A stretch of 32,712 bases of DNA from Acidobacteriaceae bacterium (lineage in GTDB: Bacteria > Acidobacteriota > Terriglobia > Terriglobales > Acidobacteriaceae), in contig PKUV01000154.1 in assembly GCA_003131315.1 (NCBI GenBank), positions 137,171 to 169,882 of the forward strand. The letters run 5' to 3'. Shown in pieces: positions 2,935 through 9,590 of this stretch. Each line of letters starts with the position of its first letter. The stretch's first letter is position 1. Below the pieces are notes generated by a model. That model saw only the letters and a program-made list of their open reading frames with translations. It was not told the DNA's origin and searched no databases. The position numbers were made by a program, and so were the translations under genes.

Positions 2935-3170
2935 CGAGTGCTTTGTGCAGAGATGTGTAGTCTGATCGTGGGGCTAGATGCCGACGGCACAAGTTTTCCG
3001 ACGCGGCCAAATCGGCACTCCTCTTTATCGTTATGCCTGGCGGTGGAAGCGTGTTCGGAACTTCGGTGGCGGCCGTACCCGTGGCGGATGGAATCCTCCA
3101 GCGGGCCGTTAACGTGCCGGAGCAAAATCACACGTCGTGACCCCTGAATAGGATTTCTAGGAGGATTTTG

Positions 3171-5654
<2,484 letters not shown>

Positions 5655-5944: not shown

Positions 5945-6072
5945 ATGCTTACGATGAAGATCTAGCCTCCGGCCGCGTAAAGCGGAGTCGAACGGTGTCG
6001 GCGGTTCGGCAGGCCACCCTTCGGCTATCGCTCAGGGCAAGCTTTCTCGAAAAGCGCGAGAAGTGGCGCACC
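5945..6072. repeat. left direct repeat flanking HigBA module 1
   Basis: This shares with 6833-6920 the run AAAGCGGAGTCGAACGGTGT (one mismatch), then GCGGTTCGGCAGGCCAC and TTCTCGAAAAGCGCGAGAAG. The left copy has about 26 extra nt (6017-6042) between the last two blocks. The two copies enclose exactly one toxin-antitoxin operon. Confidence 0.75.
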
Positions 6073-6145: not shown

Positions 6146-6178
6146 TTGACAAGTGACAATGTACACTTTACGGTGTAC
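6146..6178 (+). promoter_or_regulatory. promoter and palindromic operator of HigBA module 1
   Basis: TTGACA (6146-6151) is followed after 17 nt by a weak TACGGT (6169-6174). A perfect inverted repeat GTACAC-N6-GTGTAC (6161-6178) covers the spacer and -10, as expected for an operator bound by the antitoxin HigA. The toxin ATG is only 8 nt after the -10, so the toxin message may be leaderless. The same layout is found at module 2. Confidence 0.6.
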
Positions 6179-6182
6179 CATA

Positions 6183-6461
6183 ATGATTAGGAGCATCAAG
6201 CATCGCGGCCTCAAACGACTTTATGAGCGCGACGACCGTAGCGGGATACGTCCCGACCTGGTCGACACAGTTGAAGACATTCTCGCCCGGCTCGACGAAG
6301 CCGAGGCGCCGCAGGCCATGAACCTTCCCGGTTATCGCCTGCACCCGTTGAAAGGCGGACTGAAGGGCTTTTGGTCGGTTACTGTGCGGGCGAACTGGCG
6401 TATTATCTTCCGCTTTGAAGGCGCGGACGCGTTTGACGTTGCACTGACCGACTACCACTAG
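6183..6461 (+). CDS. higB: HigB-type toxin (RelE superfamily mRNA interferase), module 1
   Basis: HigB toxins cut mRNA on the translating ribosome. This 92-residue protein has the family pattern: [11 protein letters not shown] at the start, [27 protein letters not shown] and a final ALTDYH. An upstream ATG at 6153 is also in frame, but it overlaps the promoter/operator and the family starts at IRSIKHRG, so 6183 is preferred. The antitoxin gene follows after 28 nt, the toxin-first order typical of HigBA. The pair lies between two direct repeats. The N-terminus resembles module 2 (GFRHKGVERFF), but overall the two toxins are clearly diverged. Confidence 0.9.
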
Positions 6462-6489: not shown

Positions 6490-6795
6490 ATGCCGATGAA
6501 AAATCCGCCGCACCCCGGACGCAGTATCCGAACCGCGTGTCTTGAACCCTTGAGCCTGTCCGTCACCGAGGGAGCGGAGGTCCTCGGCGTCAGCCGGCAA
6601 ACGCTCAACAACGTCGTCAACGGCAAGTCGGGGATCAGCCCCGAGATGGCGATCCGGCTCTCGAAGGCGTTTGGCAGCACGCCGGAAACCTGGTTACGGA
6701 TGCAGCTTGCCTATGATCTCGCACGGGCCCGAAAAGACGAGAGCAAAATCAAGGTCCGCCGTCAGCATGTGCTCCAGGAACTGCACGCACAGTGA
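6490..6795 (+). CDS. higA: HigA-type antitoxin (XRE helix-turn-helix), module 1
   Basis: HigA binds and neutralises HigB and represses its own operon. The 101-residue protein begins with the typical PPHPGRSIR, followed by a helix-turn-helix ([20 protein letters not shown]) and [21 protein letters not shown]. The C-terminus ([14 protein letters not shown]) looks complete. AAGGAG at 6475-6480 sits 9 nt before the ATG. Its likely operator is the inverted repeat upstream of higB. Length and features are normal, so this module looks intact. Confidence 0.92.
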
Positions 6796-6832
6796 CGAGG
6801 CCCGCGCCCTTCACGAGTGGGATGTTGTTAAG

Positions 6833-6920
6833 ATGAAGATCCGACCTCCGGCGGCGTAAGGCGGAGTCGAACGGTGTCGGCGGTTCGGCAGGCCACTTCT
6901 CGAAAAGCGCGAGAAGCGGC
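6833..6920. repeat. right direct repeat flanking HigBA module 1
   Basis: Second copy of the repeat at 5945-6072, lacking the 26-nt internal block. It is immediately followed by the first composite palindromic element, so 6833-7344 consists almost entirely of repeats and rho fragments. Confidence 0.75.
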
Positions 6921-6925
6921 GCGGC

Positions 6926-7094
6926 GGTGGCCCAGCCTTCCGCATGGCACAACCATGCAGTGGGTGCCCCATCCTTCGCGCGCTTTTCGCGAAGGGTGGG
7001 TGGCAGTCTGATCGCACTATGGGGCTCGCCCTTCACGCCGCGCGGCTGTCCCGGTGTGAGCTTGGACGGGCGAGGGCGCCCGTCTCTCCACCGG
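6926..7094. repeat. composite palindromic element, copy A
   Basis: The element runs GGTGGCCCAGCC ... GCAGTGGGTGCCCCATCC, then a CTTCGCG/CGCGAAG hairpin, GGGTGGGTGGCAGTCT, a TTCACGCCGCGCGGCTGTCC block, and a GACGGGCG hairpin. Copies B (7175-7344) and C (8165-8339) follow the same order at high identity. On the minus strand each copy starts right after a rho stop codon. Confidence 0.85.
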
Positions 7095-7171
7095 CTACAA
7101 CTGGCTCATCTTAGCCAAAAATTCGCTGTTCGACCCCGCCTTCGCAAGCCGCTCGATCAACAACTCCATAG
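7095..7171 (-). pseudogene. rho 3'-end fragment, copy 3 (77 bp)
   Basis: On the minus strand this encodes [17 protein letters not shown] followed by LAKMSQL and a stop, identical in protein to the end of the intact rho. The DNA differs from the intact gene at several third positions (for example CTT GCG for TTG GCC, TAG for TAA), all synonymous. It cannot be expressed as Rho. Homology to rho starts at CTATGGAG, with no upstream coding sequence. Confidence 0.88.
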
Positions 7172-7174
7172 GCT

Positions 7175-7344
7175 GGTGGCCCAGCCTTCCGCAGACACAA
7201 CCAACACAGTGGGTGCCCCATCCTTCGCGCGCTTTTCGCGAAGGGTGGGTGGCAGTCTCATCGCACTATGGGACTCGCCCTTCACGCCGCGCGGCTGTCC
7301 CTACGTAGGATCGGGCGGACGAGGGCGTCCGCCCCTACGCGATC
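7175..7344. repeat. composite palindromic element, copy B
   Basis: Same block order as copies A and C. The final hairpin is CGGGCGGACGAGGGCGTCCGCCC, a variant of the GACGGGCG hairpin in the other copies. It lies between rho fragments 3 and 2. Confidence 0.85.
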
Positions 7345-7536
7345 TTACAACTGGCTCATCTTGGCCAGGAATTCGCTGTTTGACCCCGCCTTGGCCAGCC
7401 GCTCGATCAGCAGCTCCATGGCTTCGACCGGCGATAGCGGGTTCAGCACCTTGCGCAGCACCCAGATGCGCTGCAAATCCTCTTTCGGAATCAGCAGCTC
7501 TTCCTTGCGCCTGCCCGAGCGCTGGATAGCAATGGC
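7345..7536 (-). pseudogene. rho 3'-end fragment, copy 2 (192 bp)
   Basis: This encodes the last 63 residues of Rho. Two residues differ close to the break (AIAIQRSGRR versus [10 protein letters not shown]); the next 54 codons are identical in protein but carry 12 synonymous nucleotide changes. Homology stops near 7536, where the HigBA module 2 sequence begins. The higA2 frame runs into this fragment out of phase. No rho start or body is attached, so it is a relic. Confidence 0.92.
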
Positions 7537-7820
7537 GGGCGCCCTGCTCCCACGAAGAGCGGCTTCACTCTTTTGCGGCGGTGCTGGGATGCTCGCCACA
7601 GATCGTACTGTGTCTGCATGCCGATCCATAGCTCGGGGCTGGTGCCAAGGGCATCCGCCAGCTTCAGCGCCATGTCCGCCGAAATTCCCGCGCTGCCATT
7701 CAAGATGCGTGACAGGGCGACCCGAGTCACCCCAAGGTGCTTGGCGGTGTCTGTGACCGACCTCGTTCCCAAATACTCTCGTAGAACTCTTCCCGGATGT
7801 GGCGGATTGTGCATGCGCAT
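7491..7820 (-). CDS. higA: HigA-type antitoxin, module 2, with altered C-terminus
   Basis: An XRE antitoxin with MHNPPHPGRVLREYLG, helix-turn-helix VTDTAKHLGVTRVALSRILN, GISADMALKLADALGTSPELW and MQTQYDLWRASQHRRKRVKPL. Family members generally end soon after this KPL. Here the frame continues about 20 residues (GRPPLLSSARAGARKSC), with the last 15 codons lying inside rho fragment 2 in another reading frame, so the natural end seems to have been replaced at the junction. The ATG at 7820 is chosen because GAGAGG ends 5 nt before it; an in-frame GTG at 7826 overlaps that site. The toxin gene is immediately upstream. Confidence 0.88.
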   Translation of the reverse strand: MRMHNPPHPGRVLREYLGTRSVTDTAKHLGVTRVALSRILNGSAGISADMALKLADALGTSPELWIGMQTQYDLWRASQHRRKRVKPLFVGAGRPPLLSSARAGARKSC

Positions 7821-7829
7821 AAACACCTC

Positions 7830-8108
7830 TCAGTGGTAATCCCGATAGTCCACCAACACGGCATCTTCCCCTTCAAAGGTAAACGTCAGACGCCAGTTGC
7901 CGCTGACATCCACCGACCAGTGGTTTTGCAGATCGCCGCGCAAGGGATGCAGCCTCCAGCCGGGCGCGTTCATGTCCTTCTCGGATTTGGCGTTGTCCAG
8001 CGCGGCCAGCTGCAGTTTCAATTTGTCGGCATGATGCGGCTGGATTTTTGCCTTCGATCCGGTTTTGAAGAACCGCTCGACACCCTTATGCCGGAAGCCC
8101 TTGATCAT
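7830..8108 (-). CDS. higB: HigB-type toxin (RelE superfamily), module 2
   Basis: A 92-residue HigB: FRHKGVERFFKTGSKAKIQ, then PGWRLHPLRGD, WSVDVSGNWRLTFTFEG and VLVDYRDYH. All the hallmarks of the ribosome-dependent mRNA interferase are present with no frameshift. The antitoxin start lies within 10 nt of the stop, so the two are coupled. The module lies between the intact rho and its second 3'-end copy, reads in the same direction as rho, and has its own promoter. It converges on module 1. Confidence 0.92.
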   Translation of the reverse strand: MIKGFRHKGVERFFKTGSKAKIQPHHADKLKLQLAALDNAKSEKDMNAPGWRLHPLRGDLQNHWSVDVSGNWRLTFTFEGEDAVLVDYRDYH

Positions 8109-8110
8109 CG

Positions 8111-8145
8111 TGTATAGTGTATATTTATACTATACAGATTGTCAA
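8111..8145 (-). promoter_or_regulatory. promoter and palindromic operator of HigBA module 2
   Basis: On the minus strand, TTGACA (8145-8140) and TATACA (8123-8118) are 16 nt apart, and the toxin ATG follows 9 nt later. TGTATAGT (8111-8118) and ACTATACA (8129-8136) form an inverted repeat over the -10, suited to autoregulation by HigA. The AT-rich sequence stands out from the GC-rich surroundings. Confidence 0.65.
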
Positions 8146-8164
8146 ACGCCGATTTTTCAACCAC

Positions 8165-8339
8165 CCAGGGTGGGTGGCAGTCTGCCGCTGGCACAACCAT
8201 GCAGTGGGTGCCCCATCCTTCGCGCGCTTTCCGCGAAGGGTGGGTGGCAGTCTGATCGCACCATGGGACTCGCCCTTCACGCCGCGCGGCTGTCCCTATG
8301 TGGGCGTGGACGGGCGAGGACGCCCGTCTCTCCACGAAC
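8165..8339. repeat. composite palindromic element, copy C
   Basis: Same element as copies A and B, lying between the stop of the intact rho and the HigBA module 2 promoter. The CTTCGCGCG hairpin and the GGACGGGCGAGGACGCCCGTC hairpin are both present. Hairpins here could serve as 3'-end structure for rho mRNA, though no T-run is present. Confidence 0.85.
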
Positions 8340-9590
8340 TTACAGCTGGCTCATCTTGGCCAAAAATTCGCTGTTCGACCCCGCCTTGGCCAACCGCTCG
8401 ATCAACAACTCCATAGCTTCGACCGGTGACAGCGGGTTCAGCACTTTGCGCAGCACCCAGATGCGCTGCAAATCCTCTTTCGGGATCAGCAGCTCTTCCT
8501 TACGGGTGCCGGAGCGCTGGATATCAATTGCTGGGAAGGTCCGCTTATCCACCAGCTTGCGATCCAGGATGATTTCCGAATTGCCCGTGCCCTTAAATTC
8601 TTCGAAGATCACGTCGTCCATGCGGGAACCGGTGTCGATGAGGGCCGTGGCGATGATGGTGAGCGAGCCGCCTTCTTCGATGTTGCGCGCCGATCCAAAG
8701 AAGCGCTTCGGGCGCTGCAACGCGTTCGAATCGACGCCGCCCGAGAGCACCTTGCCCGAGGGCGGAACGATGGTGTTGTAAGCCCGCGCCAGGCGCGTGA
8801 TGGAATCGAGCAGGATGACCACGTCGCGTTTGTGCTCGACCAATCGTTTAGCCTTTTCGATCACCATTTCCGCAACCTGCACGTGGCGGGCAGCGGGCTC
8901 GTCGAAGGTCGAGGAGATGACTTCGCCCTTGACCGACCGCTGCATGTCGGTGACTTCTTCTGGGCGCTCGTCGATCAGCAGCACCATCAGCACGACTTCG
9001 GGATGGTTCGCGGTGATCGAGTTCGCCACGTTCTGCAACAGCATGGTTTTGCCGGCGCGGGGAGGTGAAACGATGAGGCCGCGCTGTCCCTTGCCGAGCG
9101 GGGTGAGCAGGTCCATGACGCGGGCGCTGATGTTCTCGCGCGTGGTCTCGAGCTTCAGCCGCTCCTGCGGATACAGCGGCGTCAGGTTGTCGAACAGGAT
9201 CTTGTTGCGGGCCTCGTCGGGCGACTCGAAATTGACCGCCTCGATCTTGACCAGCGCGAAATATTTTTCGCCCTCATGGGGCGGGCGCACCTGGCCGCTG
9301 ATGGTGTCGCCGGTTTTCAAGTCGAACTTGCGGATTTGCGATGGCGACACGTAAATGTCGTCGGGCCCGGGCAGGTAGTTGTAGTCGGGCGAGCGCAGGA
9401 AGCCGTAGCCGTCAGGGAGGATCTCCAGCACACCTTCCGCGAAGATGTGTCCTTCTTTTTCACTTTGCGCCTGCAGGATCTTGAAGATGAGATCCTGTTT
9501 GCGGAGTCCGCTGGCGCCGGGCAGCTCCAAAGATCGGGCGATCTTGGTTAGCTCGGTAATGTTTTTTTCTTTCAGTTCTGCAATGGTCAT
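8340..9590 (-). CDS. rho: transcription termination factor Rho
   Basis: Rho is a hexameric RNA-dependent ATPase that releases transcripts. The 416-residue protein has the N-terminal helical Rho_N ([20 protein letters not shown]), a cold-shock-like RNA-binding domain with [20 protein letters not shown] (residues 60-79), Walker A SPPRAGKT near 175-182, Walker [17 protein letters not shown], and the Q/R-loop regions [21 protein letters not shown] and [11 protein letters not shown]. Nothing is missing. The 3' end is the part duplicated twice downstream; the intact copy is the first of the three in transcription order. Only a weak GTAGGT precedes the start. Confidence 0.98.

Follow-up and report, generated by a model that had tools for sequence, protein, structure and literature searches.

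Toxin–antitoxin modules behind the rho gene and diverged rho 3′ remnants in an Acidobacteriaceae genome

Layout of the rho–hppA region

The region between rho and hppA of an Acidobacteriaceae bacterium (GenBank assembly GCA_003131315.1, contig PKUV01000154.1, positions 137,171 to 169,882; this whole stretch of 32,712 nucleotides is hereafter referred to as the window) contains, behind an intact rho gene, two further rho 3′ ends and two toxin–antitoxin (TA) modules. On balance we lean towards the reading that a donor rho 3′ end together with a TA module recombined into the resident rho, the resident 3′ end having survived as a remnant. The first-pass annotation of the window, which had drawn attention to the rho ends, overlooked that the accreted cargo consists of TA modules, which are common to relatives or replaced by other TAs there.

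Read along the rho strand, the order is: intact rho, a hairpin and composite element A, HigB1–HigA1, rho copy 2, composite element B, copy 3, composite element C, HigA2–HigB2 on the opposite strand within 69-bp direct repeats, and hppA, which is convergent to rho and closes off the gap (Table 1). The HigBA1 pair separates rho from copy 2 and HigBA2 sits beyond copy 3, as assigned with Pfam; at both loci a HigB-family toxin gene is followed by an HTH antitoxin gene (PF05015 and HTH_3), so that both pairs are predicted type II TA modules.

Synonymous divergence of the three rho 3′ ends

With the last 195 bp of rho as a DNA query against the whole assembly, three places were found, all of them in the window, and the three tandem rho 3′ ends described in the first-pass annotation are thus real. 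Identity to the intact rho end is 90% over 195 bp for copy 2 and 93% over 76 bp for copy 3. The same composite element follows all three ends, as had been noticed before, and with the composite included the full repeats reach 365 bp (7175-7539 vs 8173-8534, 88%) and 247 bp (6926-7171 vs 8173-8416, 91%).

In the last 54 codons copy 2 and the intact gene differ at 12 sites, all of them synonymous as originally counted (P=1.4e-7 against random change, under which about a quarter of the differences would be expected to be synonymous). When all 65 codons are considered, 17 of the 19 differences are synonymous, and both non-synonymous ones lie in the first ten codons, beside the junction. Copy 3, the 77-bp copy of the annotation, likewise proved to show synonymous differences only (6/6 in the last 25 codons, including TAG for TAA; P=2e-4), and the nine differences between copy 3 and copy 2 are all synonymous as well (P=7e-6).

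In the 15 genus relatives with a full-length match, the rho protein shows 97-100% identity; the copies thus look as a functional allele from the genus should, which would not be expected of a dead copy. This supports the view that the copies are alleles from different functional rho lineages and not decayed duplicates; the annotation had proposed that they were once part of functional rho alleles, and the synonymous-only differences among all three ends speak in favour of that proposal.

Toxin–antitoxin genes behind rho in the genus

Across the genus TA genes accumulate behind rho, making this region a hotspot: they are located there in 7 of the 18 genus genomes with a rho 3′ flank (the window genome, G000, included; G011 is the least certain), and the contents between rho and hppA vary among relatives. 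Genome G023 has the order rho–HigBA1–hppA with a HigBA DNA identity of 94%, and in G001 rho is followed, with further stretches in between, by HigBA2 (95% over 783 bp) and hppA. A nucleotidyltransferase gene and HepT are found behind rho in G020 and G022, a HicB-family gene in G022, HicA and HicB in G019, and a Gp49-family gene in G011, the partner of which has no Pfam match and was judged to be an antitoxin by eye.

The window genome contains seven HigB matches in 6.0 Mb, two of which fall within the 2.7-kb rho–hppA gap, and two of the four HepT matches in the 24 genus genomes searched are located directly behind rho. Altogether, seven HigB, HepT or HicA matches were observed no more than 3 kb behind rho vs 0.06 expected from their density. 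Counted as four events, given that some TAs are common to several genomes, the hotspot has a P of about 5e-7, which is a flattering value, since earlier sightings at rho were part of the reason for choosing the three families. No TA resembling the genus set was found behind rho in 20 genomes from other genera of the family, in which flanks of about 3 to 6.7 kb (less than 1 kb in two) were examined and other TA types would escape.

Several other genes were seen in this region. The rho–hppA gap of G001 C52 (L030, L256) includes an uncharacterised gene, a toxin-less gene similar to the putative antitoxin gene of G011, and a HicB-like open reading frame (ORF) recognised by eye, and it is possible that these extra genes are relics of earlier TA arrivals. 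A gene coding for a protein of about 125 residues with an end similar to ...KKAQEIQKLAKSVQDKMKNAY is located behind rho in 7 of 17 relatives (G003, G009, G013, G014, G016, G018 and G022) as well as in several other genera, and is missing from the window gap. A relative of HigB1 at G002:C120:7171-7287 has an internal stop and indels in the alignment.

Gene ends flanking toxin–antitoxin modules at other loci

The layout was found again in G022, matched to JASHOU010000033 partly through its two rho-end pattern matches, where rho is followed by the nucleotidyltransferase/HepT module and then by a rho 3′ remnant of about 120 bp. The remnants start about 195, about 120 (G022) and 76 bp before the rho end. 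The other 16 of the 17 relatives have a single rho 3′ end in the 0.9-16 kb examined behind rho. At the level of the family, 353 of 398 genomes match the last 64 rho residues (E<=0.001), and the eight doubly matching genomes outside the genus never have the two matches adjacent: they are on separate contigs or, in one genome, 460 kb apart.

Similar arrangements exist at other genes. In G017 and G008 a gene which, from its motif, we take to be of the HIT type is followed by HigBA and then by a piece of the 3′ part of the same gene (40 bp in G017 and 27 bp in G008), and no matching TA was found behind the HIT-type gene in the remaining 18 of 20 genomes (less than 400 bp of flank in two of the 18). 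Genome G005 has two further cases: at C383 a second copy of a small gene's end is found at the HigA stop, and at C159 HigBA, in reversed orientation, is flanked by the end of another small gene, Z. The window genome itself carries another HigB about 2.3 kb behind the HIT-type gene (G000:C187:78286-78552 and 80853-81335).

The left and right flanks of HigB loci were aligned with each other and compared with a swapped-flank null. From the 74 genus matches 60 were taken which, together with the two of the window, make 62 loci tested, 61 of them with enough flank; the 12 matches outside the sample are mostly weak, split or at contig ends and include the rho-linked HigBA1 of G023, which is without a remnant. 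At 8 of the 61 loci the alignment was at or above the 99% level of the null (binomial P=2e-7). Two of these eight are non-coding repeats (HigBA2 of the window and G000 C98), and the gene-end cases are rho of the window, the HIT-type gene in two genomes and the two genes of G005, each with a remnant lacking the gene 5′ part across the TA from a longer copy. In five of the eight, the right-hand copy starts within about 40 bp of the antitoxin stop or overlaps the antitoxin tail.

Relationship of the copies to rho of other genomes

Among the 15 relatives compared, copy 2 is closest to rho of G001 (94.4%), vs 92.6% to the local rho. The comparisons of rho 3′ ends omit G005 and G009, in which the rho copies are incomplete. 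In an IQ-TREE tree built from 162 bp, 2 of 14 inner branches are well supported. Assignment of the copies to other lineages is not supported by these comparisons: rho of another lineage is a slightly better match than the local rho for copy 2 and none is for copy 3, and the tree is mostly unresolved.

The nearest neighbours of rho shift along the gene among the genus genomes, which suggests that rho segments have been exchanged within the genus, and the recombination with diverged relatives offered in the annotation as an alternative is likely. The last 22 residues of rho fall into two allele classes in the genus, one of which ends in ...NSEFLSNMSSL (G006, G013, G016 and G019); this split disagrees with the nearest neighbours of the remaining rho and suggests segmental exchange at the 3′ end.

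No exact match to a degenerate rho-end pattern was found in viral contigs. Relatives of HigA1 are present on 868 plasmid records, with identity of at most about 73% among the five matches listed, and relatives of HigB1 in five phage records at 40%; both results are uninformative on this transfer.

Proposed mechanism and its alternatives

The region behind rho would be a hotspot at which small TA modules are acquired without an integrase. DNA from a related species, in which the rho 3′ end is joined to a downstream TA, would recombine with the resident rho: one crossover would be homologous and lie inside rho, upstream of the remnant boundary, leaving rho whole with a donor 3′ end. The second joint, with little or no homology, would connect the DNA just past the antitoxin with a position within the 3′ end of the resident gene; instead of being replaced, this resident 3′ end would be pushed downstream as a remnant together with its hairpin and composite element. 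A circle carrying the rho 3′ end and the TA, integrated by a single crossover, could be an alternative vehicle giving the same product. The layout, the TA families, the synonymous-only divergence, the hotspot and the further cases of the layout are observations; we infer the direction, with the intact end as the incoming one, as well as the vehicle, the crossover type and the role of addiction.

At the HigA1 joint, which falls in the variable tail of the antitoxin, the HigA frame continues into the remnant, and a short shared stretch seen near the joint by eye is only suggestive of microhomology. Stacking at rho would have happened at least twice in the window lineage, with similar events elsewhere in the genus involving another TA type and other genes. 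Given rho–HigBA1–hppA in G023 and, with further stretches in between, rho–HigBA2–hppA in G001, the rho locus of the window looks as if an end of the G023 type (rho–HigBA1) had been stacked on a locus of the G001 type (rho–composite–HigBA2–hppA). TA addiction plausibly guards the product against loss via recombination between the repeats.

A bolder version, which we regard as doubtful, is that TA modules are integrase-free mobile elements using core-gene 3′ ends as portable attachment sites. The gene end and the TA would then leave as a circle by recombination between flanking gene-end repeats and, through homologous recombination with the same gene, enter other species, where the gene would be rebuilt each time; addiction would punish loss, and rho would be a preferred dock in the genus.

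Several observations weigh against import of a donor end with its TA. In G023, rho–HigBA1 is not accompanied by a rho remnant, and with only 87-88% identity to the rho 3′ end of the window genome, that of G023 is too distant for G023 itself to have supplied the intact end. For copy 3 the best match is the local rho (92.2%), the 15 relatives compared reaching at most 87%, and an attempt to assign donors from identities, 3′ flanks and the 162-bp tree resolved the source of no copy. Rho remnants are present in just 2 of the 18 genus genomes with a rho 3′ region, the window genome included, and the second of them, G022, whose remnant carries a frameshift and is close to its own rho, does not demonstrate import. 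A coordinate-based control gave a weaker excess (6/60 HigB loci vs 4/160 random intervals, P=0.027), and HicA loci, 39 of the 50 genus matches being taken, showed none (1/39 tested at the 99% level, from 40 loci entered, 39 of HicA and one of HepT). The longest repeat, 607 bp around HigBA in G016 C44, was tried as the best parallel and rejected, the repeated gene pair being a multicopy family; it was retained in the 8/61 count, not as a clean case.

The G022 remnant fits as well with an in-place tandem duplication of the rho 3′ end, followed by allele replacement of the intact rho and separate settlement of the TAs, as do the shifting nearest neighbours of rho, which suggest allele exchange, and composite C, which shares 95% identity with A and 82% with B, a point that also counts against import. 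Duplication with replacement would yield synonymous-only differences too, but since copies 2 and 3 also differ synonymously only (9/9), two replacements would be needed, each stopping just short of the copies, and the position of a TA between gene end and remnant (rho in G000 and G022, the HIT-type gene in G017 and G008, and G005 C383) is left unexplained; we consider this course of events rather unlikely, though it deserves serious attention. Insertion of a TA with a true long duplication of one target molecule, tens to hundreds of bp in length, would account for the right-hand copy lying near the antitoxin stop in five of eight cases, as if the end of the unit were defined, and a target–TA–target order with long variable repeats fits the descriptions in the accessible parts of PMC3874152 and PMC3031569. 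Such copies, however, start identical, and decay of a dead copy would not give 12/12 and 6/6 synonymous differences, which makes this explanation improbable for rho.

A rebuilt gene 3′ end is, as is generally known, typical of the sites of site-specific integrative elements, and an element attaching at the rho 3′ end might have lost its integrase. The annotation had compared the serial accretion at a gene 3′ end with such elements while noting that no integrase is present. The arrangement does fit accretion, and none of the 13 ORFs of at least 80 amino acids overlapping the rho–hppA gap has an integrase family match in Pfam; the analogy fails in detail, as there is no fixed attachment core, the repeat start points being different. 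With TA types that are unrelated and a layout that recurs at unrelated genes, an integrative element appears extremely improbable. Hardly more credit can be given to an assembly artefact from mixed strains: the genome is indeed a draft of 194 contigs and some of the relatives are metagenome assemblies, but the locus lies about 28 kb from the end of a 173.7-kb contig, the copies are only 86-93% alike, and the same layout occurs in the separate assembly of G022.

Comparison with known systems and significance

Insertion with long (variable) target duplication was reportedly described for restriction–modification (R-M) systems by Nobusato et al. in 2000 and Furuta et al. in 2010. Long target duplications of R-M systems are reported in the accessible parts of PMC3031569, PMC3874152 and PMC1643837, of the order of 100 bp according to what is available of PMC3874152. 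As in those cases, an addiction module without its own transposase is located between long variable target repeats, and related genomes have the site without the module (16/17 for rho and 18/20 for the HIT-type gene). Unlike those cases, the modules here are HigBA and nucleotidyltransferase/HepT with no R-M system, the target is a core-gene 3′ end with the gene staying whole, and the rho target copies differ synonymously, which argues for import rather than duplication of one molecule.

The minimal mobile element is said to go back to Saunders & Snyder in 2002. By the definition in the accessible text of PMC8627216, the rho locus resembles it in having variable content between conserved genes (rho and hppA) that would be exchanged by homologous recombination, and in the lack of a mobility gene, since all 13 ORFs of the window gap are also without a transposase family match; the difference is that the content is stacked here, not only swapped, and gene-end remnants remain as scars. 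In homology-facilitated illegitimate recombination, as presented in the accessible part of PMC3240628, foreign DNA is added through one homologous crossover and one illegitimate joint, the same combination that we propose at rho, here from the sequence alone. Integrative elements at gene 3′ ends share with the rho locus a rebuilt gene end and a displaced end left behind, and differ from it in their integrase and constant attachment core.

By what route a TA module standing alone in a chromosome reaches another genome, when there is no carrier element, is to our knowledge not settled. What is added here above all is that the accreted material consists of TA modules behind a core-gene 3′ end, in a layout that recurs and is kin to R-M insertions. 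No TA modules between diverged core-gene ends were found in a literature search by title and abstract start, with subscription papers mostly outside its range, and no paper joining toxin–antitoxin with homology-facilitated illegitimate recombination was found by full-text search. Addiction genes may spread without an integrase of their own, and an essential gene can act as a safe landing place. The scars are readable in that one allele is preserved in the remnant and a different one in the intact gene, and the synonymous-only differences imply that the rho site brought together two functional lineages of the gene. The combination of gene end, TA and diverged remnant offers a genome-wide test that could separate homology import from duplication of a single target.

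Features of the locus and associated repeats

Table 1 Features of the rho–hppA region in window coordinates.
Feature	Position	Strand	Basis
rho, intact	8340..9590	-	Pfam Rho_N, Rho RNA-binding and ATPase domains; matched in full once in the genome
Intact rho 3′ end, left copy of the repeat	8340-8534	-	DNA search
Composite element A: hairpin right after the rho stop and dispersed repeat	8173..8339		Alignment, repeat search
Putative HigBA1 promoter/operator: TTGACA box and inverted repeat TGTATAGT...ACTATACA, directly before higB	8109..8150	-	By eye
HigB1 toxin	7830..8108	-	PF05015 4.6e-22
HigA1 antitoxin; final ~16 codons run into the rho remnant	7491..7826	-	HTH_3 3.2e-10; junction by alignment
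rho 3′ remnant, copy 2, 195 bp aligned	7345..7539	-	DNA search, alignment
Composite element B, abuts copy 3	7175..7344		Alignment
rho 3′ remnant, copy 3, 76-77 bp, TAG stop	7096..7171	-	DNA search, alignment
Composite element C	6926..7095		Alignment
69-bp direct repeat flanking HigBA2, right copy	6828..6896	+	91% to 5949-6017
HigA2 antitoxin	6490..6795	+	HTH_3 4.5e-12
HigB2 toxin	6153..6461	+	PF05015 3.2e-17
69-bp direct repeat flanking HigBA2, left copy	5949..6017	+	Alignment
hppA (H+-pyrophosphatase)	3168..5654	+	PF03030 1.8e-177; behind rho in 12/17 relatives

The composite element is made of dispersed repeats, with eight matches of at least 110 bp in the genome, three of which are A, B and C, and more than 30 short matches to parts of it, a subset of candidates having been scored. 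The gene that is followed by an HNH endonuclease gene (L134) forms with it a family present in many, often fragmented copies (at least 59 matches, in 15 of the 24 genus genomes), possibly an independent mobile element; several copies of this family are located near HigBA in G016 C44, G023 C186, G002 C120, G019 C40 and G001 C80.

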